Source: Allorhodopirellula solitaria (GTDB lineage: Bacteria > Planctomycetota > Planctomycetia > Pirellulales > Pirellulaceae). From it: a stretch of 64,000 nucleotides of DNA. Below the pieces are notes generated by a model. That model ran no database searches. It worked only from the letters and a program-made list of their open reading frames with translations, and was not told the DNA's origin. Where the stretch lies: contig NZ_SJPK01000006.1 of the NCBI RefSeq assembly GCF_007859855.1, positions 215,963 to 279,962 of the forward strand, read 5' to 3'. This document shows positions 1,750 through 35,421 of this stretch, piece by piece. Numbering within the stretch: the stretch's first letter is position 1; each line of letters opens with the position of its first letter. Position numbers and translations under genes: made by a program.

Positions 1750-2067
1750 GGCTCATCCGAGGGAAGCGTGGGCCCGAGGTTTTCAAGGCATGGCTCCCGT
1801 ATCGAAGGATTTATTTGTGGGATGTGATTATCAATGTTAGACTGGCACTGCCGGGAGAAACGGAGCCGAGCTCTGCAGAGGTGCTGGCTTGGCAAGGGAT
1901 ATCTCGGTCGCCAGCGTTTCCCTGCAAAAACGGTACGCCAATGGTGTTGTCGGTCCCTGGCGAGCGTTTGTTCGTCAGGGACGCATTTTTGAACGATCAT
2001 TGGATACGAGAGCCTTGCCTCAAAAAACCTTCCGCTGTGCTCTGCGCACGATTCCGTCGGATGAACC
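1750..2067 (+). mobile_element. 318-bp MITE-like element, copy 1
   Basis: The left end GGCTCATCC and right end GGATGAACC are inverted, and pairing continues inwards for about 24 bases (GAGGGAAGCG against CGATTCCGTC). Length is 318 bp, identical to the copies at 32104 and 35104, with about 14 mismatches to copy 2 by eye. Unlike the other two, this copy has no matching 8-bp flanks (CTTATTCT and AGAAAATA), so it may be older or rearranged. It encodes no transposase; open frames on both strands look incidental. The right end faces the plus-strand gene at 2418 and the left end lies upstream of fliG. Confidence 0.85.
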
Positions 2068-2200
2068 AGAAAATAGCCGGTGGTTTGAGTGCAAGCGAAC
2101 ACCACCGGATACGTCGCGAAGCGCAAAAGCCAACCCCGAATGGGGTTGAAGATCATTCGTGCGGGATCTGCGCCCCTCGTCGGGGCCGACGCTCCATCTT

Positions 2201-2272
2201 CAACGAATCACCGTAGGTGGCGCTGCGCTGACCGGCGGCTATTTTCTATCATCCCTTTCGGGATACTGATGG
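2201..2272 (+). repeat. Intergenic repeat unit shared with 11897-11973
   Basis: About 72 bp matching, in inverse orientation, the sequence at 11897-11973 (roughly 80 % by eye). Shared blocks include AGGTGGCGC, GCGCTGACCG, CGGCTATT and ATCATCCCT. It reads through as a peptide containing RRWRCADRRLFSIIP. My recollection is that similar short peptides are annotated as hypothetical proteins in Rhodopirellula genomes; I regard them as repeat translation. The rest of 2068-2417 holds no gene that I can support. Confidence 0.7.
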
Positions 2273-2417
2273 ATCGAAGACAGCTCGTTACCTGATTCAC
2301 TACGACGCTCGATGGACGCGGGAGGCACGCCGCGAGATCATGACGGCGTGACTCCGTGTCGGCTCGTTGTGTAGACTGGCGAATTCCCGCCCGCCCCTCC
2401 TGCCTACTTCGCCTGCC

Positions 2418-4199
2418 ATGTCTGTCCTCGCTCATCGTGCGCCGTCTCGCTTCCAGTTCGCGGTCGTGGCGACACTGCTTCTCGCTTCGACTGTGGCGGC
2501 CCAAAGCACGCCGCCGCCGGCTTTGTATGGTAGCGACGCTTTGGGGCGCGCGATGCCGACGCCAGCAGAGGTGCGGCCCTTTCGAAGTGATCGTTACGTT
2601 GGGCTGTTCTATTTTGCTTGGTTGCAGGGGATTGCGGCTGAGGACATTTCATTGATCCTCAAGAACAATCCCGACGCGATGTCGACCAATGCGTCTCCGC
2701 CATGGGGGAGCAAAAATTCGTTTCATTTTTGGGGTGAGCCTCTTTTTGGCTACTACCGCAGTGACGATCCGTGGATCATCCGCAGGCATGCCGACCTGCT
2801 CTCCGATGCCGGTGTCGACTTCCTCGTCCTCGACACCACCAATGCGCTGATTTACGAGAACGTCGTCGCTGAGATGCTCAAGGTGTTCGAGCAGAAACGT
2901 GCCGATGGTGATCACGTCCCGCAGCTCGCCTTCATGGTCAATTCTCGTGCTGGGCGAACCGCTCAGCGGATCTATGAAACCTTCTATCGATCCGGGGACC
3001 ACGGCGATTCGTGGTTCTCTTGGCAAGGCAAGCCCTTGTTGATTTGTGACCCCGCGAAAGCGTCTCCTGAGGTGGCCGAGTTCTTCACGTTGCGGTCGGC
3101 CCATTGGCCTTTTGAACTGGTCAACACCCACAATGCTTGGCACTGGGAGGCCACCTATCCGCAGGTCTATTCCTACGACCAGGATCCCGGGCATCCCGAG
3201 CAAATCAGCGTCTCGATCGGTCAAAATCTCGATCAACAGACCGGCCGCGTGGAGATGATGAGTACGGGCCAGGCACGCGGGCGGAGTTTCCATGATGGCG
3301 GAGTCGATCCCCGGCCCCATGCCTTTCAGTACGGATTGAACTTTCAAGAGCAATGGCAGCGAGCCTTGGAACTCGATCCGGAGGTCACCTTTGTTACCGG
3401 GTGGAACGAGTGGGTGGCGATGCAGCTCAATACCGGCGAAGGCGGCCCACCGGTGTTCTGCGACCTGTTTGACGTCGAGAACAGCCGCGATGTGGAAATG
3501 ATGAAGGGTGGTTATGGCGACAACTACTACATGCAGTTGGCTGCCAATATTCGTCGCTTCAAAGGCATGTCGCCGGAGCCAGCGATGGGGCCACACAAAA
3601 CGATCGATATCGATGGAGCGATGGACCAGTGGAGCGACGTCGAACCATCTTACCGCGACCCGACCGGCGACACGCTGCCCCGCGATTTTCCCGGCTGTGG
3701 TGATCACCACTACCGTGTGACAACGGGCCGCAACGATTTTCGTCTGGCGAAGATCTCTGAGGATGCGGCTCACTTGTATTTCTACATGCAGACCCGCGAT
3801 CCGGTCACCGACTCACACGATCCCAACTGGATGGAGCTGTTTCTGGATCTCGATGGCTCGGCGACGGTGGCGACGCACCCGAATTGGGAGGGGTTCGAAG
3901 TGCGGATTCGCGGGAGCGTCGTCGAGGCATCGACAGGCGGCTGGGACTGGCAGCCGATCGGTGATGCTCAGATGCGAGTTGACGGCAATCAGATGCACAT
4001 CGCGGTCGCCAAAAGCCTGTTGCGACCGATCAGGGAGGCCGCTGAATCCGGTTCATCGATTGGTTTCAAGTGGATCGACAACTCACAATCGCCCGGAGAG
4101 ATCATGGATGCCTATCTCAACGGTGACGCGGCTCCCGGCGGCCGGTTTCAATACCGGCACCGGGTGCACGAAGCGCCCGTTCAAAAGAGTGGCGAGTGA
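2418..4199 (+). CDS. Secreted GH71/GH99-like protein with C-terminal CBM9-like domain
   Basis: The 593-residue protein begins at ATG 2418, which gives a clean signal peptide (MSVLAHRAPSR, then a hydrophobic stretch ending STVAAQS). Residues about 45-390 resemble the (beta/alpha) barrel of GH71/GH99-type hydrolases that planctomycetes secrete: YVGLFYFAWLQG near the start, an acidic strand end at GVDFLVLDTTNA, and VTFVTGWNEWVAMQ near the end, whose Asp/Glu are plausible catalytic or binding residues. Residues about 410-590 start with TIDIDGAMDQW and contain MELFLDLDGSATV, the pattern of CBM9/DOMON-like sugar-binding domains. It probably acts on polysaccharide outside the cytoplasm; the substrate is unknown. 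It stands alone, convergent with lpdA. Confidence 0.7.
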   Translation: MSVLAHRAPSRFQFAVVATLLLASTVAAQSTPPPALYGSDALGRAMPTPAEVRPFRSDRYVGLFYFAWLQGIAAEDISLILKNNPDAMSTNASPPWGSKNSFHFWGEPLFGYYRSDDPWIIRRHADLLSDAGVDFLVLDTTNALIYENVVAEMLKVFEQKRADGDHVPQLAFMVNSRAGRTAQRIYETFYRSGDHGDSWFSWQGKPLLICDPAKASPEVAEFFTLRSAHWPFELVNTHNAWHWEATYPQVYSYDQDPGHPEQISVSIGQNLDQQTGRVEMMSTGQARGRSFHDGGVDPRPHAFQYGLNFQEQWQRALELDPEVTFVTGWNEWVAMQLNTGEGGPPVFCDLFDVENSRDVEMMKGGYGDNYYMQLAANIRRFKGMSPEPAMGPHKTIDIDGAMDQWSDVEPSYRDPTGDTLPRDFPGCGDHHYRVTTGRNDFRLAKISEDAAHLYFYMQTRDPVTDSHDPNWMELFLDLDGSATVATHPNWEGFEVRIRGSVVEASTGGWDWQPIGDAQMRVDGNQMHIAVAKSLLRPIREAAESGSSIGFKWIDNSQSPGEIMDAYLNGDAAPGGRFQYRHRVHEAPVQKSGE

Positions 4200-4273
4200 T
4201 CTGGCTGCCAATCGCGGTGGTGTGCGCGAGCCCAGTGGAAGGCTCTCAGCAGCTTGGCGAACCAAGGGCGTTC

Positions 4274-5710
4274 TCAGCTCTTGGCTTTTCGCTTGGGCTT
4301 GTAGATTTCGGTGGCGGTACCGAAGTGGATTTCGCCTGCGTTCATCAGGGTTTCGCTGAGCGTGGGGTGGGGGTGCACGGTTTCGGCGATGTCGCCGACC
4401 TCGCAACCCATTTCGATGGCTAGTGCAGCTTCGCCGATCAATTCACCGGCTCCGGTCCCTACGATGCCGCAGCCGAGCACGCGATTGGTCTCCGGATCGA
4501 TCAGCCATTTTGTCAGGCCGTTGGTGATATTGAGTGCCTGAGCGCGGCCGCTGGCGGCCCATGGGTACGTCGCCACGCTGACCTTGCGGCCATCCCGTTT
4601 CGCTTCCCCTTCGGTGAGGCCAGCCCAGGCGATTTCAGGGTCAGTGAAAACAACCGCTGGGATGGCACGCTTGTCAAATTCGGCTGATTTGCCAGCGATC
4701 ACTTCGGCTGCGACGCGACCTTCGTGAGTCGCTTTGTGGGCGAGCATCGGATCGCCGGCGACGTCGCCAATGGCGAAGATTTTCGGGTCGGCGGTGCGCT
4801 GCTGGGAATTGCAGACGACGAAGCCACGGTCGTTGACGACAACCTGAGTGTTTTCGAGTCCGAGGCCGCGGGTGACCGGGCGGCGGCCGACGCTAACGAG
4901 CACGCGATCGAAACGTTCGTGACCGAACTTGTTGGGCCCTTCGAAGGTCACTTCAATTTGGTCATCGACTTCGCTGACCGAGCCGACCTTCGTATTGAGG
5001 TGGACGCGTCCGTCGCAGATGGCGTCGATGCGTTTTGCCAAGGGCTTGACCAGGTCGCGATCCGCACCGGGGATCAAGCCTTCCGCTAATTCGACGACCG
5101 TCACCTTGGACCCAAGTCCAGCGTAGACTGTCCCCATTTCCAATCCGATGTATCCACCACCGATGACAAGCAGCGTATCGGGGATATCCTTCAACGCGAG
5201 TGCTCCGGTGCTGTCCATGACCCGGTCGCTGCCGATGTCAAAGCTCGGCGGCATGGCGGGGACACTGCCGGTGGCGAGGATGCAGTGATCAAAAGTGATC
5301 GATTTGCCTTCGGGGATTGATTCATGGTCGCCTTCGAGTTTGATTTCACTCGAGCTGGCGAACGATCCCCGGGCTTGGATCACGTTGACGCCGCGGCGCT
5401 TGGCGACTTGGGCCAAGCCGCCGGTCAGGTTGGAGATCACCTGATCCTTGCGACTGCGCACGGTATCGATATCGATCTTCAGGTCGCAGTCATACTTCAC
5501 GCCCCACTCCGTCTCCAATTCGGAGACTTCGCTGATCACTTTGGCAACGTGCAAAAGCGCCTTGCTGGGGATGCAACCACGCAGCAGGCAGGTGCCTCCC
5601 AGGCGGGGTTCGGCTTCGACGATAGTAACGTCGAGGCCTTCATCCGATGCGAGGAAGGCGGCCGCATAGCCACCGGGGCCACCACCGAGAACAACAACGG
5701 GACTGTGCAT
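4274..5710 (-). CDS. lpdA: Dihydrolipoyl dehydrogenase (E3)
   Basis: A flavoprotein disulfide reductase of 478 residues, normal for E3 of 2-oxoacid dehydrogenase complexes, where it reoxidises dihydrolipoamide with NAD+. The N-terminal FAD motif is VVVLGGGPGGYAAA. The redox-active disulfide is GGTCLLRGCIPSK near residue 40. The NAD-binding motif is LLVIGGGYIGLEMG near residue 180. The second FAD contact is FAIGDVAGDPMLAHKA, and the C-terminal catalytic His-Glu motif is VHPHPTLSE. All key residues are present. No E1 or E2 gene is adjacent; it lies 75 bp downstream of rpsD on the same strand, so it may serve several complexes or be read from the rpsD transcript. Confidence 0.95.
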   Translation of the reverse strand: MHSPVVVLGGGPGGYAAAFLASDEGLDVTIVEAEPRLGGTCLLRGCIPSKALLHVAKVISEVSELETEWGVKYDCDLKIDIDTVRSRKDQVISNLTGGLAQVAKRRGVNVIQARGSFASSSEIKLEGDHESIPEGKSITFDHCILATGSVPAMPPSFDIGSDRVMDSTGALALKDIPDTLLVIGGGYIGLEMGTVYAGLGSKVTVVELAEGLIPGADRDLVKPLAKRIDAICDGRVHLNTKVGSVSEVDDQIEVTFEGPNKFGHERFDRVLVSVGRRPVTRGLGLENTQVVVNDRGFVVCNSQQRTADPKIFAIGDVAGDPMLAHKATHEGRVAAEVIAGKSAEFDKRAIPAVVFTDPEIAWAGLTEGEAKRDGRKVSVATYPWAASGRAQALNITNGLTKWLIDPETNRVLGCGIVGTGAGELIGEAALAIEMGCEVGDIAETVHPHPTLSETLMNAGEIHFGTATEIYKPKRKAKS

Positions 5711-5785
5711 GATGTGGAAACAGGTTGCGTGGAATAGAAATGATTATGCGACTCAGGCCCGCATGAGTCCGCGCCGAGTCGTCGC

Positions 5786-6394
5786 TTAGCGCGACAGGAA
5801 TTCGACGACGCTGTTAGCATCGACGGGCAGGCTGATGTCGACGGCCCCAGGCAGGCTGAGGACGGTCGCACGCAACCCTTCGCTGTCGAAGGAGACCCAG
5901 TCTAGTCCGTCTGGCGGCGAGTTGGCGATCACGCCGCGGTACAGATTCTTGAGGTTTTCGCGACCACGGACTTCGATGATGTCGTTGGCTCGCAGCAGGT
6001 ATCCTGGCTTGGTCACTTTAACGCCATTGACGCAGAAGTGTCCGTGGACAATGCCTTGGCGGGCTTGGGGACGTGTTTTCGTGAAGCCGACGCGGCGGAC
6101 GACGTTGTCCAAGCGGCTTTCGCACATCAGGAGCAACAACTCACCGGTGTTGCCGGATTTTCGACCCACGTTTTCGAAGTAGCGGCGTAGTTGACGTTCG
6201 CCCAACCCGTAGTAGTGCTTGATCTTTTGCTTCTCCATCAACGCCAAGCCGTAGACGCTGGGACGGCGGCCCCGAACGTGCATCCCCGGAGGCGTGTTAC
6301 GCCGATCGAGGGCGCGGGCGGCGCCGGATGTTTCGTAGAGCAGCGTGCCCAAACGACGGTTAATGCGGGCTTTGGGACCGGTGTAATGACCCAT
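5786..6394 (-). CDS. rpsD: 30S ribosomal protein S4
   Basis: At 202 residues it has normal S4 length. The N-terminal region contains GPKARINRRLGTLLYE, without the Cys zinc site found in some S4 proteins. The body has KQKIKHYYGLGERQLRRYF, and the S4 RNA-binding domain carries ESRLDNVVRRVGF and ARQGIVHGHFCVNG. It is a primary 16S-binding assembly protein. It is not next to rpsM, rpsK or rpoA here, whereas in many bacteria it sits in that operon. The upstream 166 bp to the end of pheA may hold its promoter; no S4 leader structure was recognised. Confidence 0.96.
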   Translation of the reverse strand: MGHYTGPKARINRRLGTLLYETSGAARALDRRNTPPGMHVRGRRPSVYGLALMEKQKIKHYYGLGERQLRRYFENVGRKSGNTGELLLLMCESRLDNVVRRVGFTKTRPQARQGIVHGHFCVNGVKVTKPGYLLRANDIIEVRGRENLKNLYRGVIANSPPDGLDWVSFDSEGLRATVLSLPGAVDISLPVDANSVVEFLSR

Positions 6395-6560
6395 CTAGGT
6401 GTTCTCGATTCGGGGGTGGGGCGGCGGGATCGGCGTGGTGGAACCCGACAAATGGTCCCAGACGGTCTCGCCTGAATTCAGGAAAAACGAACTTTCAAGA
6501 AAATTCGAGCGGGGATTGTGGATCGACGGCGCAAAATTTTCAAGGGGAAAGGCAAGACTT

Positions 6561-7619
6561 TCAGACCTTTCGTCCCCGGGGGTAGCTACCCAAGACAGCG
6601 AGGTGCTGGGTTTGCTCGGGCAACGCCGCGATCGCGGCGGTGACTGCTGGTTCACTTTGGTGTCCAGGGAACTCGACGATGAAGAAATACTCGTTCGGGC
6701 GGCCCGGTTTAGGGAAGGATTCGATCCAGGTCAAGTTCAGGCCATGATCACGTAAGACCCCCATCACATCGGCGACCGTCCCGGGTCGGTGCTGGACTTC
6801 AAACAGTAGAGTGGTTTTGTCGTCGCCACTCGGTTCGGGTTGTTCCGAGCCCAGGACCGCGAAACGGGTGATATTGTCGCGGTTGTCTTCGATCGAGGGC
6901 TGGACGACGTCGAGCCCGTACCGCCGGGCCGCGGCGAGGCTCGCGACCGCGGCGATACCCGGCGTTTGAGCTGCTGCCTCGGCGGCGGCTGCCGTCGAGG
7001 CGGTCTCGACGAGCTGCACGCCCGGTAGGTGATCTGCCAGCCAACCTCGGCACTGAGACAACGCCTGCGGCTTGCTGTGTACCTGCGTGATCTCAGCAAG
7101 TGGGCTTAGTGAGAGCAGGTTGTGATGGATCGCCAGCAAGATCTCGCCGGTGATATTCACGTTGCCGTGAGTGAGGCGGCCGAGCGTGTCGACGATGCGG
7201 CCATCGGTGCTGTTTTCGATCGGCACGATACCATGTCCGCAATCGCCCCGGCCGACCGCGTCGAACACCGCGCCGATGGACGAGACGGGCGACAATTCGG
7301 TTCCCTCCCCGAAATACCCCAAGGCCGCCAGATGGCTGTAGCTGTCGATCGGACCGAGAAAGGCCACCCGTTCGGGCCGCGAAGCTTGGTAGCACGCCGA
7401 AACAATATGCCGCAGGATGGACCGCCGCGCCGCTGCTGGGATCCCCGCTGGAATTGTCGCCATCGATTCCGTCGCGACCCGTTCGGCCTCAGCCATTCCC
7501 TCAGTAAGATTCGGGCTGTCACCCTGCTGACGCAGTTGAGCTGCCACCCACCGTTGTCGGCGATCGATCAGATCGAGGATTTCTTGATCGAGCTGGCTGA
7601 GGTGGGTGGGGTCATGCAT
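6561..7619 (-). CDS. pheA: Bifunctional chorismate mutase / prephenate dehydratase (P-protein)
   Basis: Two steps of phenylalanine synthesis, chorismate to prephenate to phenylpyruvate. Residues about 1-85 are an AroQ-type chorismate mutase (LSQLDQEILDLIDRRQRWV). Prephenate dehydratase follows, with VAFLGPIDSYSHLAA, GIVPIENSTDGRIVDTL and the catalytic Thr region NITRFAVLG. A C-terminal ACT domain contains the Phe-sensing motifs HRPGTVADVMGVLRDHGLNLTWIES and hence probably feedback control, though the ESFP form of the ESRP motif is slightly altered. ATG 7619 is preferred over the in-frame GTG at 7655 because the extra 12 residues are unlike the family. It is a single gene with no other aromatic genes nearby. 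Confidence 0.93.
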   Translation of the reverse strand: MHDPTHLSQLDQEILDLIDRRQRWVAAQLRQQGDSPNLTEGMAEAERVATESMATIPAGIPAAARRSILRHIVSACYQASRPERVAFLGPIDSYSHLAALGYFGEGTELSPVSSIGAVFDAVGRGDCGHGIVPIENSTDGRIVDTLGRLTHGNVNITGEILLAIHHNLLSLSPLAEITQVHSKPQALSQCRGWLADHLPGVQLVETASTAAAAEAAAQTPGIAAVASLAAARRYGLDVVQPSIEDNRDNITRFAVLGSEQPEPSGDDKTTLLFEVQHRPGTVADVMGVLRDHGLNLTWIESFPKPGRPNEYFFIVEFPGHQSEPAVTAAIAALPEQTQHLAVLGSYPRGRKV

Positions 7620-7901
7620 GGTATCGGTGAAGATTAGCGGGCCGCGTGCTGGCACCCTGGTGGGTGCGGGCGAGAGGAACAGGGAAGGCGAGGAAACAGG
7701 AAGGCTAAGTAGCAGGGAACTGTCGAGCGTCGTTCATCTCATCGTTCGATGTGAACGCTTGGCTGGCCGGAAAACCACCCCAAGAATTCGTCACCGTGGA
7801 ACGAGGACGACTGAGAAGATAACCAACGTCGGTGGCTTTCGCACCCGGCGGGGTGCGGAGGCTTCCGGTCGACTGTTTCTGCACCCGGCGAGCTGCTTTC
7901 A

Positions 7902-8029
7902 AGCCCAGCAGACTATTGGGCTGTCGATTGATTCGATGTTGGCTCCGCAATGGTGAGCCGAGGGCAGTAAGGCCCTGGGTAGCGCCGCTCACCCGGCCAC
8001 TGACGCGTCTCAGCTCAATCACTCGACAG
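7902..8029 (+). repeat. Palindromic intergenic repeat, copy A
   Basis: The unit starts with a stem AGCCCA (7902-7907) pairing TGGGCT (7917-7922). It continues CTGTCGATTGATTCGATG and then the shared core GTGAGCCGAGGGC with its partner CAGCTCA, ending TCGACAG, the reverse complement of its own CTGTCGA. Related copies lie at 11688-11894 and 54845-54972. It occupies the gap between pheA and the minus-strand gene ending at 8034. The rest of 7620-7901 holds short hairpins but no gene that I can support. Confidence 0.7.
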
Positions 8030-8033
8030 CCGG

Positions 8034-8480
8034 CTATGCGGCCCGGCGGGTTTCGCCCGCAGTTTGGTGCTGAGGAGCTTGGTGTTGAGGTTCGGGCGCG
8101 ACCATTGGCAGTGTCGACGGTGCGAGTGGCTCGACGGATTCGGTGGGTTCGACGGGTTCGGTGGGAACCGCCGGCTGCGTTTGCTCGCTGTTTTCCGCTT
8201 GCGCGAGCGCCTGTTTCTGGTGGAGCTCTTGCACCTGCTCGGACATCTCAGCCGCGTTCCAGCTGACCAGGCAGGCTCCATCGGTGTCGTGGATTTTCAG
8301 CTGGTCCTCTTCGGCGAACCAGATCGCAGAGAATTGTTCGCAGCGAAATTTTCGACCGCAGTAGAATCCATTGTTGATGAAGATCGAGTCGTGCAGATCG
8401 ATCGATTCGTCTGGATATTGCCCCTGGCAGTAGGCATGGACACAGTTGCGGACGCGAGCGAGCTGTTGCGACGGAGTCAT
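8034..8480 (-). CDS. Conserved hypothetical protein with Pro/Glu-rich tail
   Basis: A 148-residue protein starting at ATG 8480. Residues about 1-90 look folded, with a pair of cysteines in INNGFYCGRKFRCEQF and an acidic stretch WFAEEDQLKIHDTDG. Residues about 95-148 are a Gln/Pro/Glu-rich low-complexity tail with PTEPVEPTESVEP repeats. There is no signal peptide or membrane segment. I do not recognise the family. The N-terminal half has the composition of a real protein, whereas the opposite-strand frame reads as repetitive Arg/Gly-rich sequence. It is divergent from hpt, with 156 bp between the starts. Confidence 0.6.
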   Translation of the reverse strand: MTPSQQLARVRNCVHAYCQGQYPDESIDLHDSIFINNGFYCGRKFRCEQFSAIWFAEEDQLKIHDTDGACLVSWNAAEMSEQVQELHQKQALAQAENSEQTQPAVPTEPVEPTESVEPLAPSTLPMVAPEPQHQAPQHQTAGETRRAA

Positions 8481-8636
8481 GCGTCTGTTCGACCTGGATC
8501 AAATGCGGCAAAATAAGCGGACGGCGATGCACCATCGGCTGTCGTGATGTATCGGCGGTCGCTGTCGCGCGGGATCGGCTAGACCGTTCCATGTGGCAAA
8601 CTCAACCCAGTTCTCCTATCTTTAAGGCCGGCTCTC

Positions 8637-9176
8637 GTGCGCACGTTGATTACTGAAACGCAGCTTTCCGCTGGCGTTGCGCAGCTCGCCCGCGAAATTG
8701 ACGCGCACTATCGCGGTCGCCCCATCACCGTCGTGGCCGTGTTGACCGGTTCGGTCGTGCTCTTTGCCGACCTGATTCGGCGGCTATCGATGCCCCAGCG
8801 TGTGGGTGTGATCCAAGCGTCGAGTTATCGCGGTGGGACGAAGCCTGGCGAGTTAATCATTGATGCGAAGATGTTGATCGATGTGAAGAATCGAGACGTG
8901 CTGTTGGTGGACGATATTTTTGATACGGGCGCGACGATCGCGAAGCTGCGAGAGGAATTGCTCGCGATGGGGGCGGACAGCGTGGCGACGGCCGTGTTGT
9001 TGCGGAAATCTCGTGAGGATCAGCACAGCATGCGGCCGGACTTCATTGCCTTCGAGATCCCTGACGAGTTTGTCGTTGGCTACGGATTGGACTACCTCGA
9101 CATGTATCGCAACCTGCCCTACATCGCCATCCTCGAGCCGGCTGAGATTGCCGCGACGGCGGCTGAGTTCGGATGA
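8637..9176 (+). CDS. hpt: Hypoxanthine phosphoribosyltransferase
   Basis: A purine salvage enzyme of 179 residues that forms IMP or GMP from the free base and PRPP. The PRPP-binding signature is VLLVDDIFDTGATI near residue 90. The GSVVLFADLIRRL segment and SSYRGGTKPGE loop match the HPRT flexible loop region. The C-terminal VGYGLDYLDMYRNLPYI is diagnostic for hypoxanthine/guanine PRTases. The start is GTG 8637, which gives the expected N-terminus. It overlaps the next gene by 4 bp (ATGA), so the glycosyltransferase is probably translationally coupled to it. Confidence 0.93.
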   Translation: MRTLITETQLSAGVAQLAREIDAHYRGRPITVVAVLTGSVVLFADLIRRLSMPQRVGVIQASSYRGGTKPGELIIDAKMLIDVKNRDVLLVDDIFDTGATIAKLREELLAMGADSVATAVLLRKSREDQHSMRPDFIAFEIPDEFVVGYGLDYLDMYRNLPYIAILEPAEIAATAAEFG

Positions 9177-10459: not shown

Positions 10460-10519
10460 GCTCTTCGTCTTCTATCCCTTGGGAACAAATCCTTGCCTCT
10501 CGCTGACCGCTCAACCGCC

Positions 10520-11894: not shown

Positions 11895-11896
11895 AC

Positions 11897-25724: not shown

Positions 25725-25895
25725 CTACATACTCGATTCCTGGTCGCTCACCATTTCATCATGCTCTACGATCTCCTGTTGCACGGCATCGTCGAGTGCA
25801 GGAGGTGGCTCGGGCCCGCCGCAGCCGCATGTCACGGCACAGCCGATCGTGAGCAGCAACCAATAGATTCGTCGTTTTTGAGTCGTGGATTTCAT
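25725..25895 (-). CDS. Small lipoprotein (56 residues)
   Basis: A short gene whose ATG at 25895 shares one base with the TAA of the DUF1559 gene (TAATG), so it is translationally coupled. The protein starts [20 protein letters not shown], a positively charged signal with lipobox LTIGC. It continues VTCGCGGPEPPPALDD and ends with an acidic tail (EIVEHDEMVSDQESSM). Small Cys/Gly/Pro-rich lipoproteins commonly follow DUF1559 genes in planctomycetes. It is probably anchored in the outer membrane or periplasm; the function is unknown. Confidence 0.75.
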   Translation of the reverse strand: MKSTTQKRRIYWLLLTIGCAVTCGCGGPEPPPALDDAVQQEIVEHDEMVSDQESSM

Positions 25896-26968: not shown

Positions 26969-27388
26969 CGATTCTCCTCTGCAACTACTAGAAGATTGAA
27001 GGTCACGTAGCGAGAGAGTTTTCCCGCTATCGTGCCGAGCGAATCAACGTGACGTCGCTCGACGTTGCTGATTGAAACGAGTGGCAAAATGATCGTCCAG
27101 AGCTCTCGAGGCGAAGTACGCCGTTCTTCTTCAAAGCTTCACGAGCACGCCAGGCTCCGTGAAGATTCGGTTACCCGAAGCCTTCTGCTAGTGTGAAGAA
27201 ACTGTGCACACCGTCTTTCGGCAATGCGTTTCCACAGTGAAAGATGTGGGATGATCGGTCACGATCGAGGCAAGGCCGGGGCTAGCGATCAGCGCTGTTG
27301 CGTTCGGAGTTCTCCTCGCGGGTGAACACACCTTGAAAACCAACTGCGAGGGCTGCTGCAATCCAATTGCACACCTGACGAGTGGGTC

Positions 27389-28147
27389 GTGGTCGGAATG
27401 GATCAAGACGTCGATCTTCCCAAGACAACGGCATTCCCTGTTCGCACCGCACGGGTGGATGGTAATGGGACAAGTTTGCCGCTCGCGGAGGCACGCAATC
27501 GCGCGGCGGAGTTCAGCCGCAGTGAGTCAATCGTTTTCTTGGACGTCGATTGTATCCCTTCGGCATCCATGATCGATAGGTTCCAGTCTGCGCTGCGAGA
27601 TGATGATCGTTTATGGATGGGAAGTGCTCGCTATCTACCAGCGAACGCAACCGATGGGCAATGGAAGATGGACGACCTGTCGCTGCTAGCGCGCCCGCAT
27701 CCGCTCCAACCCGATTTGGATGAAGGAGAACGGCAACCGTCAGAGCACTACGAGATGTTCTGGTCGTTGTGTTTCGCGATCAGGAAGTCTACGTTTCAGC
27801 AGATCGGTGGGTTTGATGGCTCGTTCGATGGTTACGGCGGCGAGGATACTGATTTCGCTTTCGCAGCGAGACACGCGGGCGTATCGTTCGGTTTTCTAGG
27901 AGCGGTGGCCTATCACCAGCACCACAAGGTTTGCAAACCACCCCTGAACCACTTTGATGCGATCGTGCGAAACGCGATGCAATTTCGCGAGAAGTGGGGC
28001 GTCTGGCCGATGGAGTCTTGGTTAAACGCCTTTGCGAGGATGGGGCTACTCCAGTTTGATATCCGCGATGACACCCTTTCGATTCTGAGAAAACCGTTGA
28101 GTGAGGAAATCGATGCCGCCGCCGCGGTTGCTCCGTATGGCTTCTGA
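27389..28147 (+). CDS. GT2-type glycosyltransferase, 5'-truncated (possible pseudogene)
   Basis: The frame is open from 27326 and reads THLENQLRGLLQSNCTPDE before the GTG at 27389, which already looks like GT2 sequence. The metal motif region is ESIVFLDVDCIPSAS. The acceptor region is FAIRKSTFQQIGGFDGSFDGYGGEDTDFAFAARH, typical of C-terminal galactosyltransferase-like domains. The normal GT2 N-terminus (first beta strand) is missing in this frame because of a TGA at 27323-27325. The adjacent frame just upstream reads AISAVAFGVLLAGEH, which could be that strand, so an AC-dinucleotide frameshift near 27327-27331 is possible. It may be a decayed gene or use an unusual start. Confidence 0.6.
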   Translation: MVGMDQDVDLPKTTAFPVRTARVDGNGTSLPLAEARNRAAEFSRSESIVFLDVDCIPSASMIDRFQSALRDDDRLWMGSARYLPANATDGQWKMDDLSLLARPHPLQPDLDEGERQPSEHYEMFWSLCFAIRKSTFQQIGGFDGSFDGYGGEDTDFAFAARHAGVSFGFLGAVAYHQHHKVCKPPLNHFDAIVRNAMQFREKWGVWPMESWLNAFARMGLLQFDIRDDTLSILRKPLSEEIDAAAAVAPYGF

Positions 28148-28274
28148 AGCGCGGGCAGCATAGCGTTGTTGTCGTTCTCCATTTGACCGAATGGTTTATT
28201 TCACGAACGCTGGTCGCTAGTATCAGCATATCGCTGGCACTGACGACTGGATCCGACCTGAGAGAGACACCGAC

Positions 28275-29489
28275 ATGAGCGACAATTCGACCGAGCCATC
28301 CTGGCGCAAAGAACTCGCGTCTTTGCTAACTCGCTCCGCGTCGTCAGTAGACGATTTTGCCGATACGCAAATTCGTCGTCTCCGCAAACGCTTCGGACGC
28401 TCAGGCCGCCCTGCGATTCAACCGTACAACGGGTACGCCACCGCAGACACCGTGCATCTTCATGGTCGCGTGCTAACCAATCCATTGTTGGACGCCAGGC
28501 TTCGCGACGATCGCTGGTGGCACGATCTGGCAGCTACTATTCAGCGGTTCGCCAGCGACGAAGTCCCTGGTGTCACTGTGCTTGCCCGCATGGGAAATGC
28601 GACAGGGCACACCGTCAGTGACGCCGAAGGCTATTTTCGCGTGACGCTCGCGCGGGACGAGATCGGTGGGGAATTGCCATTTTGGTCGGAAGCGGCCCTC
28701 TGTCTCGCCGATCATCTGCACAAACCGACGATCGAGTCTGCGACGCAGTGTAATGTGATGACGGCGCCAGAGAGGGCGCGCTTTGCGTTGATCAGTGATG
28801 TCGACGATACGATTATGCACACGGGCGCCACGAGTCTCGGGACGATGGCGAAGCTGACATTCTTCGCGAATGCCCGAACGAGAGCACCTCTGCCCGGCAT
28901 CGCGAGTTGGTACGAGGCATTGCAGCATGTCGGCAGCTGTGGGGATCCAAACCTCTCGCCAGAGTGTGAACGCACGAATCCGATTTTCTATGTGAGCAGC
29001 TCACCCTGGAACCTCTACGACCTTCTCGCGGACTTCATTGAGATCAATGCGATACCGGACGGCCCAATTCTACTGCGAGATTTAGGATTCGAAGAGGACA
29101 AATTCTTCAAGAACGGCCATGATCACAAGCTAGCGAAAGCTCGTCGGCTGTTGCGGCAGTTTCCGGGATTGCCGTTTGTGTTGTCAGGCGATTCGGGTCA
29201 AGAAGACGCGCGTCTGTATGCCGCCGCTGCGGAAGAGTTTGGTTCACAAATAAAGGCCATCTTCATCCGCGATATCGACCCGCTGTCGGATAGCACGCAC
29301 GATGAGGAGGTTGTGCGATACATGAGGCAGGCGGGGGCTGCGGGCGTCCCCATGTTCGCGATCGGTGACAGCGTGGAGGCTGCTCGATACTGCGTGGAGC
29401 TGGATTTGTTGCCGCCTTCTTGCCTGGAGGAAATCAAGGAGGCAACCGACCGCGACGAGCATCGTTTGAGCGGGCCATTGACGCCGTGA
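28275..29489 (+). CDS. DUF2183 (App1-like) phosphatase domain protein
   Basis: A 404-residue protein from ATG 28275. The C-terminal half matches the HAD-like DUF2183 domain of yeast phosphatidate phosphatase App1: FALISDVDDTIMHTGA supplies the DxDxT nucleophile, NPIFYVSSSPWNLYDLL the second motif, and LPFVLSGDSGQEDARLY the acidic third motif. Spacing is as expected. The N-terminal part (HLHGRVLTNPLLDARLRDD and GVTVLARMGN) is the usual beta-rich region of bacterial members. It may remodel membrane lipids; activity is inferred. No signal peptide is seen. It converges on the YihY gene. Confidence 0.87.
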   Translation: MSDNSTEPSWRKELASLLTRSASSVDDFADTQIRRLRKRFGRSGRPAIQPYNGYATADTVHLHGRVLTNPLLDARLRDDRWWHDLAATIQRFASDEVPGVTVLARMGNATGHTVSDAEGYFRVTLARDEIGGELPFWSEAALCLADHLHKPTIESATQCNVMTAPERARFALISDVDDTIMHTGATSLGTMAKLTFFANARTRAPLPGIASWYEALQHVGSCGDPNLSPECERTNPIFYVSSSPWNLYDLLADFIEINAIPDGPILLRDLGFEEDKFFKNGHDHKLAKARRLLRQFPGLPFVLSGDSGQEDARLYAAAAEEFGSQIKAIFIRDIDPLSDSTHDEEVVRYMRQAGAAGVPMFAIGDSVEAARYCVELDLLPPSCLEEIKEATDRDEHRLSGPLTP

Positions 29490-29592
29490 ACTCTACTTTC
29501 GACCGTGCCGATATCACGCCACGAGCGATTCCCGTGCGCCCACCCAGGAAAGACGCGACTTGTCCGGTGCCAATTTAAAACGCGGCGAAGAT

Positions 29593-30522
29593 CTAGTCAT
29601 GCACACGGCCGGATTCGGAACGCCGAATCCGCTCCTCCACCTTCACCGCGTGGTCTTCTGGCCGGATTCCACTTCCGTACAACGATGCATACACCTGTGT
29701 GGCTTCCGCGCCGAGCAGCACGATGATCGCCGTGTAATAGACCCACGCCAGCAGCACGGCCAGGGATGCGGCGGCCGAACCAAGCTGGGCTCCCGGTTCG
29801 CTGATTTGGAAGTAGATTTGCATAGCGAATCGCCCGACCAAAAACAGTGCCGTTGTTATCGCTGCGCCTACCCCAACATCTTTCCACCCGACCTCCGCAT
29901 CGGGCATGAACTTGAAGATCGCAGCAAACACGATGAACACGACGACAGCTTGAACGACGAAGTTGACCAGCGTGGCTGCGAACCCCGACATCCCGACCAT
30001 CGAGCCGACTCGATCTCCGACGCCTGCTAACACCGATGAAACGGCCAGAGAAACCAGCAGCAGAAACGCCAATCCGAGGATCATGCCGAACGAAAAGATT
30101 CGCTTCCAAATGATATCTTTGATTCCTGTTTCCTCCGGATCTGGTTTGACTTCCCAAACGCTATTGAGCGACGCCTGCAATGCAGCGACCACTCCGGTGG
30201 CTCCGATAATGATACCCGCGAAACTGATCAGCGTTTTCCACCATTTGCCGCCCGCCTTGTCGTTGTTCTCCAGGATGGTAGCGATTTCGTCGCTGATCGC
30301 TTCGTTTCCAATCATTTGCGACGCCTGTTCTGTAATCGTTTCCTGTGCTTTTGCTTCCGCTTGCTCGCTCTCATAGACTGTCGACATACCCAAGGTTAAG
30401 AGCGTCAACAGCAGGAAAAGCAGCGGTGGTAGAGCGAAGGCGGTGTAGTAAGCCAACGCTGCGGCCAGCGTGGTGCAGTTGTCGCTTGAAAATTCGGAAA
30501 ACGTCTGCTTGAGGAACTTCAT
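29593..30522 (-). CDS. YihY/BrkB-family inner-membrane protein
   Basis: A 309-residue protein from ATG 30522, with alternatives at 30564 and 30585. The N-terminal MKFLKQTFSEFSSDNCTTLAAALAYYTAFALPP matches the family's start before the first membrane helix. About six hydrophobic helices follow, one with IIIGATGVVAALQASLNSVW and a last with LGSAAASLAVLLAWVYYTAI. A conserved Asn/Trp in NSVWEV is present. The C-terminus is charged and cytoplasmic. The transport substrate of this family is not settled. It is divergent from the DUF892 gene, with 312 bp between them; this gap has a run of eight G (30596-30603) and no gene. Confidence 0.88.
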   Translation of the reverse strand: MKFLKQTFSEFSSDNCTTLAAALAYYTAFALPPLLFLLLTLLTLGMSTVYESEQAEAKAQETITEQASQMIGNEAISDEIATILENNDKAGGKWWKTLISFAGIIIGATGVVAALQASLNSVWEVKPDPEETGIKDIIWKRIFSFGMILGLAFLLLVSLAVSSVLAGVGDRVGSMVGMSGFAATLVNFVVQAVVVFIVFAAIFKFMPDAEVGWKDVGVGAAITTALFLVGRFAMQIYFQISEPGAQLGSAAASLAVLLAWVYYTAIIVLLGAEATQVYASLYGSGIRPEDHAVKVEERIRRSESGRVHD

Positions 30523-30834
30523 GACGGGGATTCGTGTGGGCGGTGGGAGCGAGTTGGCGGCCATCAAATCGAGAGTGAACAGCAAATGACATGCCGGGGG
30601 GGGCGTTTGCCGATCCGGCTAGTTTCTCGTTCGTCTCACCCCACAGCGTACCCACCGTTCTCTGGGCTGGATCACGAGAAGAAGGGGGCAACGCGGCTCC
30701 AGAAACTATGTGGCAGCTTCGGTAGGATGTCGACGCCGACCAGGTGTAGCCGGTTCGCTACTGGTCCTGTGGCATTTCATTTGCACCGAAGCGAGCAGGT
30801 TTACTCGAACGATCCACTACCTAGGAGATTACAG

Positions 30835-31347
30835 ATGGGACTCTTTACCAGTGCCCAGTCTGACTCACTCGAATGCTTGCTCGTTGACCAAATGAAGGAC
30901 CTGTATGACGCAGAGCACCGCTTGATCGATGCGCTTCCAAAGATGGCCGATGCAGCATCATCGCCGCAATTGAAGAAGGCGTTTCAGAGCCATCTGCGAG
31001 AAACCAAAGGACATGTCAATCGTCTGGAGCAGGCGTTTCAGCTTCTCGATGAATCCGCCAAGCGGGAGTCCTGTGAGGCGATGAAGGGATTGATCAAGGA
31101 GGGTGAAGAGATGATCGATTCCAAGGGCGACCCGGCTATCAAGGATGCCGCTTTGATCGCGGCAGCGCAGCGGGTCGAACACTACGAAATGGCCGGCTAC
31201 GGTTCGGCGAGGAACTTCGCACAGCGCTGCGGCCGATCGGACGTCGCGGACCTATTGCAGCAGACGTTGCAAGAGGAAGGCGACGCCGACAAGAAACTCA
31301 CGGAAGTTGCTGAGTCGTCGATCAATACGGCGGCGGCCCGTGTTTGA
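30835..31347 (+). CDS. DUF892 (YciE/YciF) ferritin-like protein
   Basis: A 170-residue protein. ATG 30835 is preferred because CTAGGAG lies 9 bases upstream, a rare good ribosome binding site in this window. The four-helix-bundle pattern is clear: LLVDQMKDLYDAEHRLIDAL contains the first E/H metal ligands, FQSHLRETKGHVNRLEQAF the next, and AAQRVEHYEMAGYGSARNF the third set. YciE/YciF proteins bind a di-iron centre and respond to osmotic and oxidative stress. The ExoD gene follows after 131 bp in the same direction. Confidence 0.9.
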   Translation: MGLFTSAQSDSLECLLVDQMKDLYDAEHRLIDALPKMADAASSPQLKKAFQSHLRETKGHVNRLEQAFQLLDESAKRESCEAMKGLIKEGEEMIDSKGDPAIKDAALIAAAQRVEHYEMAGYGSARNFAQRCGRSDVADLLQQTLQEEGDADKKLTEVAESSINTAAARV

Positions 31348-31478
31348 ATCTTGATTCCAGACCCGAACCGGGGCGTGGTGGGATCCGCGCGCCGGGTCGA
31401 ACCTGGGTCAGAATTCAGAGTATCGAAGCAGGCGTAGCTGCAACGCCGGGAAACAATCGGGTACCGCGGTCAATCAAG

Positions 31479-32075
31479 ATGTCCACTTCAACACAACATC
31501 CTACAGAAAACATTCTCAACGAGATCGACGATGCAGCGGATCAACATGATCCGGTGACACTGGGGGATGTAATGGATTTTCTCGGTCAGGACTCTTTCGC
31601 ACCACTCCTGCTTCTGATTGGCGTGGTTATGTTGGTGCCTGGGCCCGCAGACATTCCGGGTGTGCCAGTAATCCTCGGCTTGCTAGTCATTATCGTAGCG
31701 GGCCAGATCGTGCTACATCGCGAGCATCTGTGGATTCCAAACTGGATCGAACGCAGGAGATTGACGGCGGAACGAGCAAAGACAATGGTGTCCTGGGTAC
31801 GCATGCCTGCGCGTTGGGTTGACCGCATTACCAAACCTAGATATCAGGCGATCATCAATCATGCGGGAGCGTCAATGTTAGCCGTTGCCTGCGTCCTCGT
31901 CGCGATGACGACGCCGATTCTTGAGTTGATTCCTTTCAGCGCCAATGTTGCGGGGGCCGCAATCGTTGCGTTCGCGGTTGCTTTGTTAGCGAAGGACGGC
32001 TTGGTGGCAGGGATAGCAATCTTATTGGCATTAGCGACAGTTGGAATGGTGGCCTACCAACTTGTCGGTAGCTGA
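31479..32075 (+). CDS. ExoD-family membrane protein
   Basis: A 198-residue protein from ATG 31479. The N-terminal soluble part contains DPVTLGDVMDFLGQDSFAPL. Hydrophobic helices follow (LLLLIGVVMLVPGPADIPG, VILGLLVIIVAGQIVL), then a basic loop (IERRRLTAERAKTMVSWV) and two or three more helices. This arrangement matches ExoD, needed for exopolysaccharide synthesis and alkali tolerance in rhizobia; its biochemical role is unknown. A 318-bp element sits just 28 bp after the stop, so its insertion spared the gene. Confidence 0.82.
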   Translation: MSTSTQHPTENILNEIDDAADQHDPVTLGDVMDFLGQDSFAPLLLLIGVVMLVPGPADIPGVPVILGLLVIIVAGQIVLHREHLWIPNWIERRRLTAERAKTMVSWVRMPARWVDRITKPRYQAIINHAGASMLAVACVLVAMTTPILELIPFSANVAGAAIVAFAVALLAKDGLVAGIAILLALATVGMVAYQLVGS

Positions 32076-32103
32076 AGTGTACAATCGTGTTGTCAGGAAA
32101 TCG

Positions 32104-32421
32104 GGTTCATCCGACGGAAGCGTGCGCGCGAGGTTTTCGAGGCATGGCTCCAGTATCGAAGGATTTATTTGTGGGATGTGATTATCAATGTTAGACTGGC
32201 ACTGCCGGGAGAGACGGATCCGAGCTCTGCAGAGGTGCAGGCTTGGCAAGGGATATCTCGGTCGCCAGCGTTTCCCTGCAAAAGCGGTACGCCAATGGTG
32301 TTGTCGGTCCCTGGCGAGCGTTTGTTCGTCAGGGACGCATTTTTGAACGATCATTGGATACGAGAGCCATGCCTCAAAAAACCTTCCGCTGGGCTCTGCG
32401 CACGCTTCCCTCGGATGAACC
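32104..32421 (+). mobile_element. 318-bp MITE-like element, copy 2
   Basis: Ends are GGTTCATCC and GGATGAACC. The inverted repeat extends to GACGGAAGCGTGCGC against GCGCACGCTTCCCTC, about 24 bases with one mismatch. Flanks are GGAAATCG on the left (32096-32103) and GGAAACCG on the right (32422-32429), an 8-bp target duplication with one change. It has no transposase gene. The right end lies 104 bp before ppa, so the element supplies or displaces part of the ppa leader. Confidence 0.9.
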
Positions 32422-32525
32422 GGAAACCGTCGCTTACTGCGGAATCGGATCTCTAACGTCAGCAGGTGAGTTGCAGGCCCGACGCACAACCAGAGTGATA
32501 CCCGCAATTCAGAGCGAGAACGACG

Positions 32526-33068
32526 ATGGATCCGAGAAATACAATTACCTCACATCCGTGGCATGGCGTTTCCCCTGGTGCGAATGCACCGGACGTCGTC
32601 AATGTCATCGTTGAGATTCCGCGAGACGGTAAAGTAAAATATGAACTCGACAAAGACAGCGGTCTGCTGAAGGTCGATCGAGTTTTGTTTTCGGCAGTGC
32701 ACTACCCGGCCAACTATGGGTTCATTCCCCAAACACTCGCCGACGATTCCGACCCGCTTGACGTGCTGGTGCTGTGTCAGGAGCCTGTTGTCCCGCTCGC
32801 CCTCATGCAGACGCGACCTATCGGCCTGATGACGATGGTGGATGAAGGCAAAATCGACCACAAGATCATCGGCGTGGCTGTGGGCGACGCCGAGTTTAAT
32901 GCATTTTCTGATCTGCAGTCTCTGCCCAAACACCGTTTGGAGATGGTGCGTCGGTTTTTTATGGACTACAAAACACTTGAAAAGAAAAATGTCGAGGTCC
33001 GGGACTTTTCTGATGCAACGACGGCGAAAGAAGTGATCAGGAAGGCGATTCGCCAGTACCAAAATTAG
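32526..33068 (+). CDS. ppa: Inorganic pyrophosphatase (family I)
   Basis: A 180-residue soluble enzyme that hydrolyses pyrophosphate to drive biosynthesis. The conserved NVIVEIPRDGKVKYELDKDS provides substrate-binding Glu/Lys. The metal-binding signature is DDSDPLDVLVL, and HYPANYGFIPQTL is the typical strand before it. The MVDEGKIDHKIIGV motif carries further metal ligands. Length agrees with hexameric bacterial enzymes. The start ATG 32526 follows a mobile element that ends 104 bp upstream, so its native promoter was probably separated or replaced. The convergent SHD1 gene ends 6 bp beyond its stop. Confidence 0.95.
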   Translation: MDPRNTITSHPWHGVSPGANAPDVVNVIVEIPRDGKVKYELDKDSGLLKVDRVLFSAVHYPANYGFIPQTLADDSDPLDVLVLCQEPVVPLALMQTRPIGLMTMVDEGKIDHKIIGVAVGDAEFNAFSDLQSLPKHRLEMVRRFFMDYKTLEKKNVEVRDFSDATTAKEVIRKAIRQYQN

Positions 33069-33074
33069 CCATTG

Positions 33075-34985
33075 TCATTTGGAATCGACGAGACCCTGCA
33101 AAGTGAACTGAGACGACATCAGTGCGCTGGAACGGTTTCCGCCGGCTTGATTGTCACTGGGCTTTTGCATGAACTCGGGGAAGCGGAGTGCCGCGAACAT
33201 GGACGTATTGGGAGCCTTGCCTGCTTCATCGAGCGCTTCTTGCATCGTTTGGCCACGTTTTGTCATTAGGACCCCAGGGACATTGGAACGATTGGTCGAC
33301 CAGAGTGCTTTGCCGTTCCACTGTATCTTCACGGACGACGTGAATTTGTTGACGATGTAGGAACCGGCGGCGATATAGCCCACTGCCTCTTGTTTCGGGC
33401 CACTGATCGAGGCAACAATCTGAATCGGCGATGAACTGTCGAGCGTATAACCTGAAGTTGTCACGGACTTCTCGATTCCCTCTCTGGCGACCTCTTGGTA
33501 CTGGCCGGTGACCCCGGAGACGTCAACGGAAACGCCGACTCCGGGATGCAGTAGGAACAGTGAAGGGGCCTCTTGCGCCTGCTCGAGCATCTTGATTGCA
33601 GCGGGGTGCGGGAACTTGGCTGGTGCCAAGACGCCTCCTGCATTGGACTGGAAGGCGATGAACGACGTGCCTCCGATGGTCTCGATCTGGGAAGCACCTC
33701 GGTACTCACAAACCTGGATCTTGCTCTCCAGATCGATCAGCAAGCGGTTGTCCAAAAGTGCAAAGTCTTCGTTGGGGAAACTCAATGCCTTGGTCGCGAT
33801 GGGGCCGCCGGGGAGGGTGAACTCAAATGCCCATTGGCCTGTTTGAGTATCCATGACTCGCACATCTGCGATCGACGTCAACAGGATCTGCTTGCCATTG
33901 GGACTCCAGGCGACCCGGCACCAACCCGTTGCGGTGTTGGGAGGTAAGGCGGTACTGCCAAGAATCTCGGCGGTCTCAGGATTGAGAACCATGAGTGTCT
34001 TCTCGTCAAAAACGGCTAGCAATTTTCGGTCAGCTGAGAGCTTCATCGCAAAGTTGCGTTCACTTAATCGAGCGTGCCAAATCGGTTTACGCTTCGACAG
34101 GTCCCATAGCACCAGGTGGCCTTTGTCGCTGATCGTTAACACTCGACTGCCACTGAGCACCTCGGCTGCGAGCACGTCCGCGTCTGATCGCCCGCCGTCT
34201 TTGTCTTGGGGGTAAGGCGTCCAGCTTGCCGAACGGACAACCTTCTTGCCATTAAACCGCCAGAGCTGCAATTCGCTTTTCTTTTCGTATCCACCCCGGT
34301 CGTCGCTGCAGCCCACCATCAAGACGGAGTTGCCATTGTCGAGCAATGCCAGCGGCCGCATGTGGCCTTCGACCGGGCCGCCGTGGATGGATTTTCCTGA
34401 CACGAGATCGACGAGCGATAGTCTGCTTTGCGGTTTAGGAACACCGAACGAAACGGTATTTCCCACGGCGGCACGTTTGGATTGGGTGTTGATCGCCAGC
34501 GGTTGCAGGTTCTCGTGGAAGGTCGATTTTTTCGTGAGTGCTGCTCGCTTGGGTTCCCATCCCAGACCGCCATCGGACTCCGGGACCTGCCACTGAACGC
34601 CGGCCATGGACGTGAACTGATTCGCGTCGTCCCAGTTCACTGGCTGGGGTGTTGCCCACAACGCCGCGTTCACGTCGGCGTCGGCCGATGTCGGACTGCT
34701 GCTTGTCGGCTCCTCATCGACCATCTCAAAGGGATTGTCGCCTCCGCTCAAGAATGCTTGGTCTTGTTCGCTGAGCCGGGAGATTGGAATACGAATCGTT
34801 TTGCCGTCACTGTTCTTGATCATGGCGTTGCCGCCGGTGACCTCGATCAGCGTTCCGGTAATCTTGAAGCGACCAGTGGAGTCTGTCCACTGCCTCGCGG
34901 CGTCTTGCGAATGGCCGATCGAGACAGCTACGAGCGGCAGGCAAACCATTAGAAAAAGAACGGTACGAACCGATGCAAGCGTCAT
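33075..34985 (-). CDS. Secreted SHD1-domain protein with beta-propeller-like repeats
   Basis: A 636-residue protein. The frame continues upstream through the 318-bp element, but ATG 34985 gives a proper signal peptide (MTLASVRTVLFLMVCLPLVA, cleavage near SIGHSQ), so I take that as the start. Residues about 30-80 form an SHD1 domain (WTDSTGRFKITGTLIEV, IRIPISRLSEQDQAFL), common in planctomycete secreted proteins. Residues about 190-470 contain WD40-like strands (VLTISDKGHLVLWDLSKRK, GRVAWSPNGKQILLTS-type segments). The C-terminal part is unassigned. It probably mediates protein contacts at the envelope. Its upstream region holds element copy 3, 118 bp from the start. Confidence 0.75.
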   Translation of the reverse strand: MTLASVRTVLFLMVCLPLVAVSIGHSQDAARQWTDSTGRFKITGTLIEVTGGNAMIKNSDGKTIRIPISRLSEQDQAFLSGGDNPFEMVDEEPTSSSPTSADADVNAALWATPQPVNWDDANQFTSMAGVQWQVPESDGGLGWEPKRAALTKKSTFHENLQPLAINTQSKRAAVGNTVSFGVPKPQSRLSLVDLVSGKSIHGGPVEGHMRPLALLDNGNSVLMVGCSDDRGGYEKKSELQLWRFNGKKVVRSASWTPYPQDKDGGRSDADVLAAEVLSGSRVLTISDKGHLVLWDLSKRKPIWHARLSERNFAMKLSADRKLLAVFDEKTLMVLNPETAEILGSTALPPNTATGWCRVAWSPNGKQILLTSIADVRVMDTQTGQWAFEFTLPGGPIATKALSFPNEDFALLDNRLLIDLESKIQVCEYRGASQIETIGGTSFIAFQSNAGGVLAPAKFPHPAAIKMLEQAQEAPSLFLLHPGVGVSVDVSGVTGQYQEVAREGIEKSVTTSGYTLDSSSPIQIVASISGPKQEAVGYIAAGSYIVNKFTSSVKIQWNGKALWSTNRSNVPGVLMTKRGQTMQEALDEAGKAPNTSMFAALRFPEFMQKPSDNQAGGNRSSALMSSQFTLQGLVDSK

Positions 34986-35103
34986 GACAAAAGACTCGAT
35001 AAGGAAACACGTAATAGTGGCGGATAGGAACGAATGCAGTTTCAGAACCACAGGAGATGAATGGAACTTGGCGAAAAAGTATGCAGCGTTCGGTGCAAAA
35101 AAT

Positions 35104-35421
35104 GGTTGATCCGACGGAATCGTGCGCAGAGCACAGCGGAAGTTTTTTTGAGGCATGGCTCTCGTATCCAATGATCGTTCAAAAATGCGTCCGTGACGAA
35201 GAAACGCTCGCCAGGGACCGACAACACCATTGGCGTACCGCTTTTGCAGGGAAACGCTGGCGACCGAGATATCCCTTGCCAAGCCCGCACCTCTGCAGAG
35301 CTCGGCTGCGTTTCTCCCGCCAGTGCCAGTCTAACATTGATAATCACATCCCACAAATAAATCCTTCGATACGGGAGCCATGCCTTGAAAACCTCGGGCG
35401 CACGCTTCCGGCGGATGAGCC
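35104..35421 (-). mobile_element. 318-bp MITE-like element, copy 3 (inverted)
   Basis: In window orientation the ends are GGTTGATCC and GGATGAGCC. It is flanked by an exact 8-bp direct repeat, CAAAAAAT at 35096-35103 and 35422-35429, the clearest evidence that the family moves and duplicates its target. Its right end faces the SHD1 gene (start 34985), the same relative orientation as copy 2 to ppa. An open frame through it fuses to the SHD1 gene but is not needed to explain that gene. Confidence 0.92.

Follow-up and report, generated by a model that had tools for sequence, protein, structure and literature searches.

The prokaryotic MITEs Correia, ERIC and Chunjie have been reviewed (PMC10969869), and the main text of that review also names two insertions of IS1111 in QMITE2 of Coxiella burnetii. 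According to the text of another report, the IS1111 group is marked by longer right ends and by a bridge RNA located in the right end (PMC11208160). Here we describe a 318-bp sequence that is present three times in a window of 64,000 nucleotides from Allorhodopirellula solitaria, which is a stretch of contig C6 in the draft genome G000 (62 contigs, 6.8 Mb). The sequence is short and encodes no transposase, it has terminal inverted repeats and a fixed 8-bp target duplication, and it occurs in many dispersed copies. Based on the sequence comparisons, we estimate at roughly 90% the probability that it is a MITE that was moved by the ISL3 transposase of an IS that shares its ends, and that this transposase has since been lost. 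This interpretation builds on the observed ends, target duplications, empty sites and copy number, and on a matching ISL3-type IS in relatives.

Copies of the element in the window

The features of the three copies are listed below, with coordinates counted from the first nucleotide of the window.

1750..2067, + strand: MITE copy 1, 318 bp, without an 8-bp duplication
1750..1773, + strand: 24-nt terminal repeat at the left end of copy 1, of a type also present in the ISL3-type IS of genomes G007 and G005
1863..1873, + strand: GAGCCGAGCTC, element nt 114-124, empty in this copy and occupied by a second small element elsewhere in the genome
2018..2019, + strand: element nt 269/270, the IS1111-group junction elsewhere in the genome, empty here
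2044..2067, - strand: 24-nt terminal repeat at the right end of copy 1
32096..32103, no strand: target duplication on the left side of copy 2, GGAAATCG
32104..32421, + strand: MITE copy 2, 318 bp
32422..32429, no strand: target duplication on the right side of copy 2, GGAAACCG
35096..35103, no strand: target duplication of copy 3, CAAAAAAT
35104..35421, - strand: MITE copy 3, 318 bp
35422..35429, no strand: target duplication of copy 3, CAAAAAAT

The three copies were found at the coordinates and on the strands given in the original prediction, and each is exactly 318 bp long. The prediction that they are flanked by 8-bp duplications holds for copy 3 (8/8 positions) and for copy 2 (7/8), but not for copy 1, the flanks of which (CTTATTCT/AGAAAATA) match at only 1/8. 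The 24-nt ends are part of longer imperfect inverted repeats, with self-matches of 61-73 nt at 72-74% among the 40 of 234 candidates that were scored. The left flank of copy 1 (1727-1749) corresponds to the end sequence of a third insert, which is described below.

Copy number and sequence divergence

A search of the genome with a 30-nt core of the element gave 124 matches with up to three mismatches, and a search with the 24-nt end gave 306 matches with up to two mismatches, as compared to 0 for both of the reversed patterns. The copy number is thus far above chance. From 110 loci and the window we extracted 116 matches of at least 100 nt (shorter ones were dropped before counting), 67 of which are complete from end to end; the extraction was guided by 100 listed of the 124 core places, and interrupted copies may count twice. 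After dropping copies that are shorter than 310 bp or contain N, 65 complete copies were left for the alignment.

The aligned copies differ from their consensus at 7.75 positions on average, ranging from 1 to 24. Substitutions had been suggested to be denser near the ends, in a manner unlike typical decay. The total diversity of the 65 copies agrees with the first part, being 3.1% and 3.7% across the 62 nt at either end and 1.8% in the centre, but singletons are spread evenly along the element (0.42 and 0.50 per site in the outer 62 nt and 0.47 in the centre), and faster mutation of the ends was rejected on this basis. The diversity at the ends is carried by common variants, among others at nt 49, 55, 259, 272, 273 and 279, and six or seven copies form a subfamily that is recognised by a linked block of variants spanning nt 243-316. 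The apparent departure from decay is explained by such shared subfamily variants, and there is no need for a special mutational process.

Elements of other sizes are also present in the genome. Seven representatives of 93, 197, 243, 300 and 317 bp have perfect 8/8 duplications, and one further 300-bp copy has a 7/8 duplication. Other lengths without target duplications would speak against the prediction; the copies examined do not overturn it, the exception being three 299-bp copies (L089, L099, L330), the flanks of which match at 3 to 5 positions only.

In a search of 60 genomes, in which no more than 12 candidates were scored for each, five genomes, including that of A. solitaria, gave any match to the element, and all five belong to the same genus. 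A single near relative of the 318-bp type was seen outside the genome itself, in G007, and is 87% identical over nt 47-313. The sister MITE of genome G002 measures about 304-313 bp and has the same left end (43 nt) and right end (24 nt), but a different interior. Among 12 copies of this sister MITE (one of them 204 bp), the duplication is 8/8 in two and 7/8 in one. An exact 37-mer of the MITE core had no match in a contig database from which records close to the A. solitaria genome are possibly absent.

Target duplications, empty sites and genomic location

The 8-bp duplication is perfect in 26 of the 65 complete copies and matches at 7 or more positions in 42 (shuffled-partner expectation, 0.48). 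Among lengths from 4 to 12, perfect duplications were found at 8 only. The A+T content of the 42 duplications is 74%, as compared to 46% in their flanks. In 16 of the 65 copies the flanks match at four or fewer of the eight positions, which counts against the interpretation of the element as an ISL3 MITE.

Empty sites, seen as matches that span the joined flanks, were identified for 13 of the 65 copies, nine of which have a duplication of at least 7/8. The identity is at least 83% for six of them: L030 (96.5% over 114 nt), L086 (89.1% over 211), L044 (89.0% over 155), L100 (85.9% over 185), L101 (84.3% over 216) and L050 (83.0% over 100). The remaining seven are weaker (71-80%). In the clearest case, L030 has ACTTATTC on both sides of the MITE, and the unoccupied repeat L315 has a single ACTTATTC. 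The repeat in question (TAAGCAACGCACGATCAATTTCTGTCGTAGTGGACGAGG...) is dispersed and present in L030, L315, L010, L218 and L326, with the MITE inserted into that of L030. For copy 2, an orthologous empty site was sought in the relatives, and only diverged gene matches were obtained.

The MITE copies are mostly intergenic. Copies with a duplication below 7/8 or with flanks that were short or contained N were dropped, which reduced the sample from 65 to 40 insertion sites. Seven of the 40 sites are inside an ORF of at least 200 aa, versus 447 of 525 random positions drawn from the window only; for ORFs of at least 100 aa the numbers are 18 of 40 versus 494 of 525.

A candidate autonomous partner of the ISL3 type

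Among the 13 genomes of the genus, the 24-nt end pattern was found not only in A. solitaria (306 matches) but also in G007 (26), G002 (26), G009 (2) and G005 (1), and there were none in the other eight. At five places examined in G007 and G005, ends of the MITE type bound an IS of 1336 bp. Two of the five copies (L162 and L178) have 8/8 duplications, CGAGAATA and TTATTTAC, while the flanks of L163, L165 and L166 match at only 1 to 3 positions, which counts against the interpretation. The left end of the MITE matches the IS of G005 at 23/24 positions and that of G007 at 23/25; the corresponding values for the right end are 26/29 and 21/24, and the interior is without a match. The IS encodes a transposase of about 420 aa that matches PF01610 (252 bits) and NF033550 (310 bits) and contains the ISL3 zinc-ribbon and HTH domains. 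Relatives of this transposase, at 84-85%, are present in Aporhodopirellula aestuarii ICT_H3.1. These findings support the prediction of a non-autonomous, MITE-like element that makes an 8-bp duplication and depends on a partner in trans.

Of the features that mark an ISL3-mobilised element, the shared ends were found and an intact partner in the same genome was not. The draft assembly of A. solitaria has no intact close ISL3 transposase, which also counts against the interpretation, and the top-scoring ISL3 proteins are about 30% identical. The most similar sequence to the partner transposase is a remnant of 53 aa, which is 57% identical and contains a stop. The MITE burst looks orphaned of its partner because the assembly contains only this decayed remnant of the partner lineage. 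The mover has probably been lost from the genome or is inside an assembly gap.

Elements inserted in the MITE

An element of the IS1111 group is inserted in copies of the MITE elsewhere in the genome. Its left end was found at 22 places and its right end at 26, which are counts of ends and not of whole copies, the left and right halves being mostly on separate contigs. All 22 left ends are in MITE arms, each located directly after the arm core, which is GAGCCATGC in 20 of them and has one mismatch in two. The outer MITE end was found upstream of 20 of the 22. The left ends are in right-arm orientation in 21 cases and in the left arm in one (L209); that of L229 follows another insert in the right arm. 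All 26 right ends are followed by CT and a MITE arm, 25 times the right arm and once the left (L343). The junction in the right arm is at MITE nt 269/270 for 21 left ends and 25 right ends, and CT is present at both junctions.

The only assembled copy of this element is 1977 bp long, collapsed, and contains ambiguous bases. Its transposase, in which some residues are ambiguous, has the DEDD domains PF01548 (69.3 bits) and PF02371 (39.9 bits). A DEDD transposase with a Transposase_20 domain, together with a right noncoding end of 313 nt as compared to 98 nt on the left, places the element in the IS1111 group of the IS110 family. A 54-residue N-terminal piece of the transposase gave no family match by itself. 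The search for a bridge-RNA guide, which had no chance control, yielded target matches of 6-7 nt only, and an Rfam search of L312 gave no match. Relatives of the transposase were identified in G010 (71% and 41%), G003 (62%, L360) and G012 (39%), and in none of the other nine genomes of the genus. The sequences flanking the 71% relative (L359) are unlike the MITE arm, which hints that its target has changed.

The second passenger measures about 305 bp, has GAATGGCGTGGACTTAAGC as its ends, and is inserted at nt 114-124 in nine extracted copies, in both orientations. The sequence GAGCCGAGCTC is repeated on both sides of the insert and represents an 11-bp duplication. The loci include L052, L067, L079, L096, L032, L045 and L078, and two of the nine copies (L045 and L078) contain the IS1111-group element as well. 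In L083, L071, L070, L084 and L088 a longer element begins at the same site, and its first 16 nt are those of the second passenger, with a mismatch in one copy. The third insert, of about 390 bp and with ends TAGTGGTCTGTCAC, is located at TA at nt 261 in L049, L093 and L104.

Assembly breaks within the IS1111-group element

A piece of about 527 bp, consisting of MITE nt 1-269 and about the first 258 nt of the IS1111-group element, was considered as a mobile unit of its own. It was dropped because the right border common to these pieces looks like a collapsed-repeat break, with an ambiguous interior and halves that can be paired. Using the 8-bp duplications, left and right halves matched at 7 or more of 8 positions in 16 of 520 comparisons, as compared to 1 of 520 in the reversed control. 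A right partner was found for 14 of 20 left ends, nine of them at 8/8, while comparison of the left ends with the right flanks of the 65 complete copies gave 9 matches in 1300.

Six left halves (L213, L215, L216, L220, L222 and L223) run without N into other sequence. They are probably misjoins, and an 8/8 right partner is present elsewhere for four of them (L213, L215, L216 and L220). The tail of the ISL3-type IS on contig C34 is joined to the left halves L215 and L222, probably by misassembly. Contigs C2, C5, C9, C13, C14, C31, C38, C40 and C52 start with left halves, and contigs C8, C15, C33, C39 and C46 with right halves, many contig starts falling on either of two fixed positions within the element. 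The IS1111-group insertions account for the break points of many contigs in the assembly, and the pairing of halves by their 8-bp duplications offers a cheap means of ordering contigs.

Alternative explanations

The 318-bp sequence could instead be maintained for a function, as a structured RNA or as a small gene, which we consider extremely unlikely. Copy 1 folds strongly on both strands (z -5.59 and -5.70), but covariation in eight divergent forms was not above that of shuffles (3 cells versus a mean of 2.0, fraction 0.29) and no Rfam family matched the window at the gathering threshold. A structured RNA was rejected on these grounds and on the Rfam result for L312, and the strong fold is probably a consequence of the inverted repeats. 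The consensus also has two frames that are open from end to end, and in the one on the minus strand synonymous changes are mildly in excess (73 of 235 observed versus 212 of 945 possible). However, stops interrupt the two frames in 21 and 23 of the 65 copies and the plus frame has no synonymous excess, and a coding element was rejected despite the mild excess in the minus frame. It is also very unlikely that a different transposase, for which the genome still has a gene, dispersed the copies, for instance one of the IS1595 or IS66 families or of the distant ISL3 elements. Target duplications of 8 bp occur in more than one IS family and are not exclusive to any of them, and distant ISL3 transposases with open frames are encoded on contigs C19 and C34. 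The ISL3-type IS on C34 (L182, 1429-2740; 1312 bp) has an 8-bp duplication, CTCCCTCA, but its ends, GGTTCTTCTCGGAATTTAGTGGCA, are unlike those of the MITE, and the transposase of the sole IS found with MITE ends belongs to another branch of ISL3. An IS1595- or IS66-like partner, which the original prediction had named as a candidate by duplication size only, was rejected because the one IS found to have the same ends belongs to ISL3 according to both PF01610 and NF033550. We retain the interpretation of the element as a MITE moved by the ISL3 transposase of the same-end IS.

The abundance of the IS1111-group element could have a different origin, in that its copies multiplied inside one transposing MITE rather than by repeated insertion. 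The junction is identical in nearly all copies, as this would predict. However, the opposite arm is used by one of the left ends (L209) and by one of the right ends (L343), although L209 lies within a collapsed and possibly chimeric copy. Furthermore, the occupied MITEs are of several subforms, and some hold a further insert (L045, L078 and L229). Multiplication inside one MITE is thus unlikely. It is slightly more likely than not that the 318-bp MITE is the sole landing site of the IS1111-group element here, used exclusively and at a fixed base, with a third element at another fixed site of the MITE, and with the copy number of the IS1111-group element capped by the MITE burst. If true, this would be a "stacked parasite", for which the first transposon spreads safe, mostly intergenic docking sites.

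Discussion

We propose that the 318-bp element consists of a pair of transposon ends that enclose no transposase gene. An ISL3-family transposase from a full IS with matching 24-bp ends would bind the ends of the MITE and move it, and transposition would create an AT-rich 8-bp target duplication. Such a transposase lineage has probably acted in the past of the A. solitaria genome and later been lost, and the mostly intergenic MITE copies would then have come to serve the IS1111-group element as a landing site, at a single fixed base. We infer this order of events and the mechanism by which the IS1111-group element is targeted; the junctions themselves are observed.

As far as the text of the review goes, insertion of IS1111 in a MITE has been reported before, for QMITE2 of Coxiella, where an IS1111 element likewise has a MITE as its target (PMC10969869). 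Two insertions are named for QMITE2, whereas all 22 left ends and 26 right ends detected here are in the MITE. The element resembles the IS110/IS1111 bridge-RNA elements, as these are described in the text of PMC11208160, in its DEDD domains, its CT at both junctions and its longer right noncoding end. As for IS621 in REP repeats (PMC11208160, same text), the target is a dispersed repeat; unlike in that system, it is the arm of a MITE, and the candidate guide pairing is 6-7 nt only. The genome thereby provides about two dozen natural IS1111-group insertions at one base of a dispersed repeat, which are useful for tests of RNA-guided targeting.

No published report of the 318-bp element was found in the literature searched, and the terms ISL3 and planctomycet are not used in the main text of PMC10969869. 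The element represents a large MITE family of the ISL3 type in planctomycetes, with a likely autonomous partner in sister species, and a MITE burst whose partner seems lost. One of the closest systems is the 1336-bp ISL3-type IS of G007 and G005, which has 24-bp ends like those of the MITE and 8-bp duplications in two of five copies; the 318-bp element differs in that it is without a transposase, has only the ends in common with the IS, and has no intact partner in its own genome. As in Correia, ERIC and Chunjie, as these are presented in the main text of the review, the element is short, has terminal inverted repeats and direct repeats, and is present in dozens to hundreds of copies and in several sizes, and it differs from them in its ISL3 partner family (PMC10969869). 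The MITE family is ordinary in kind, and large and clear as an example.
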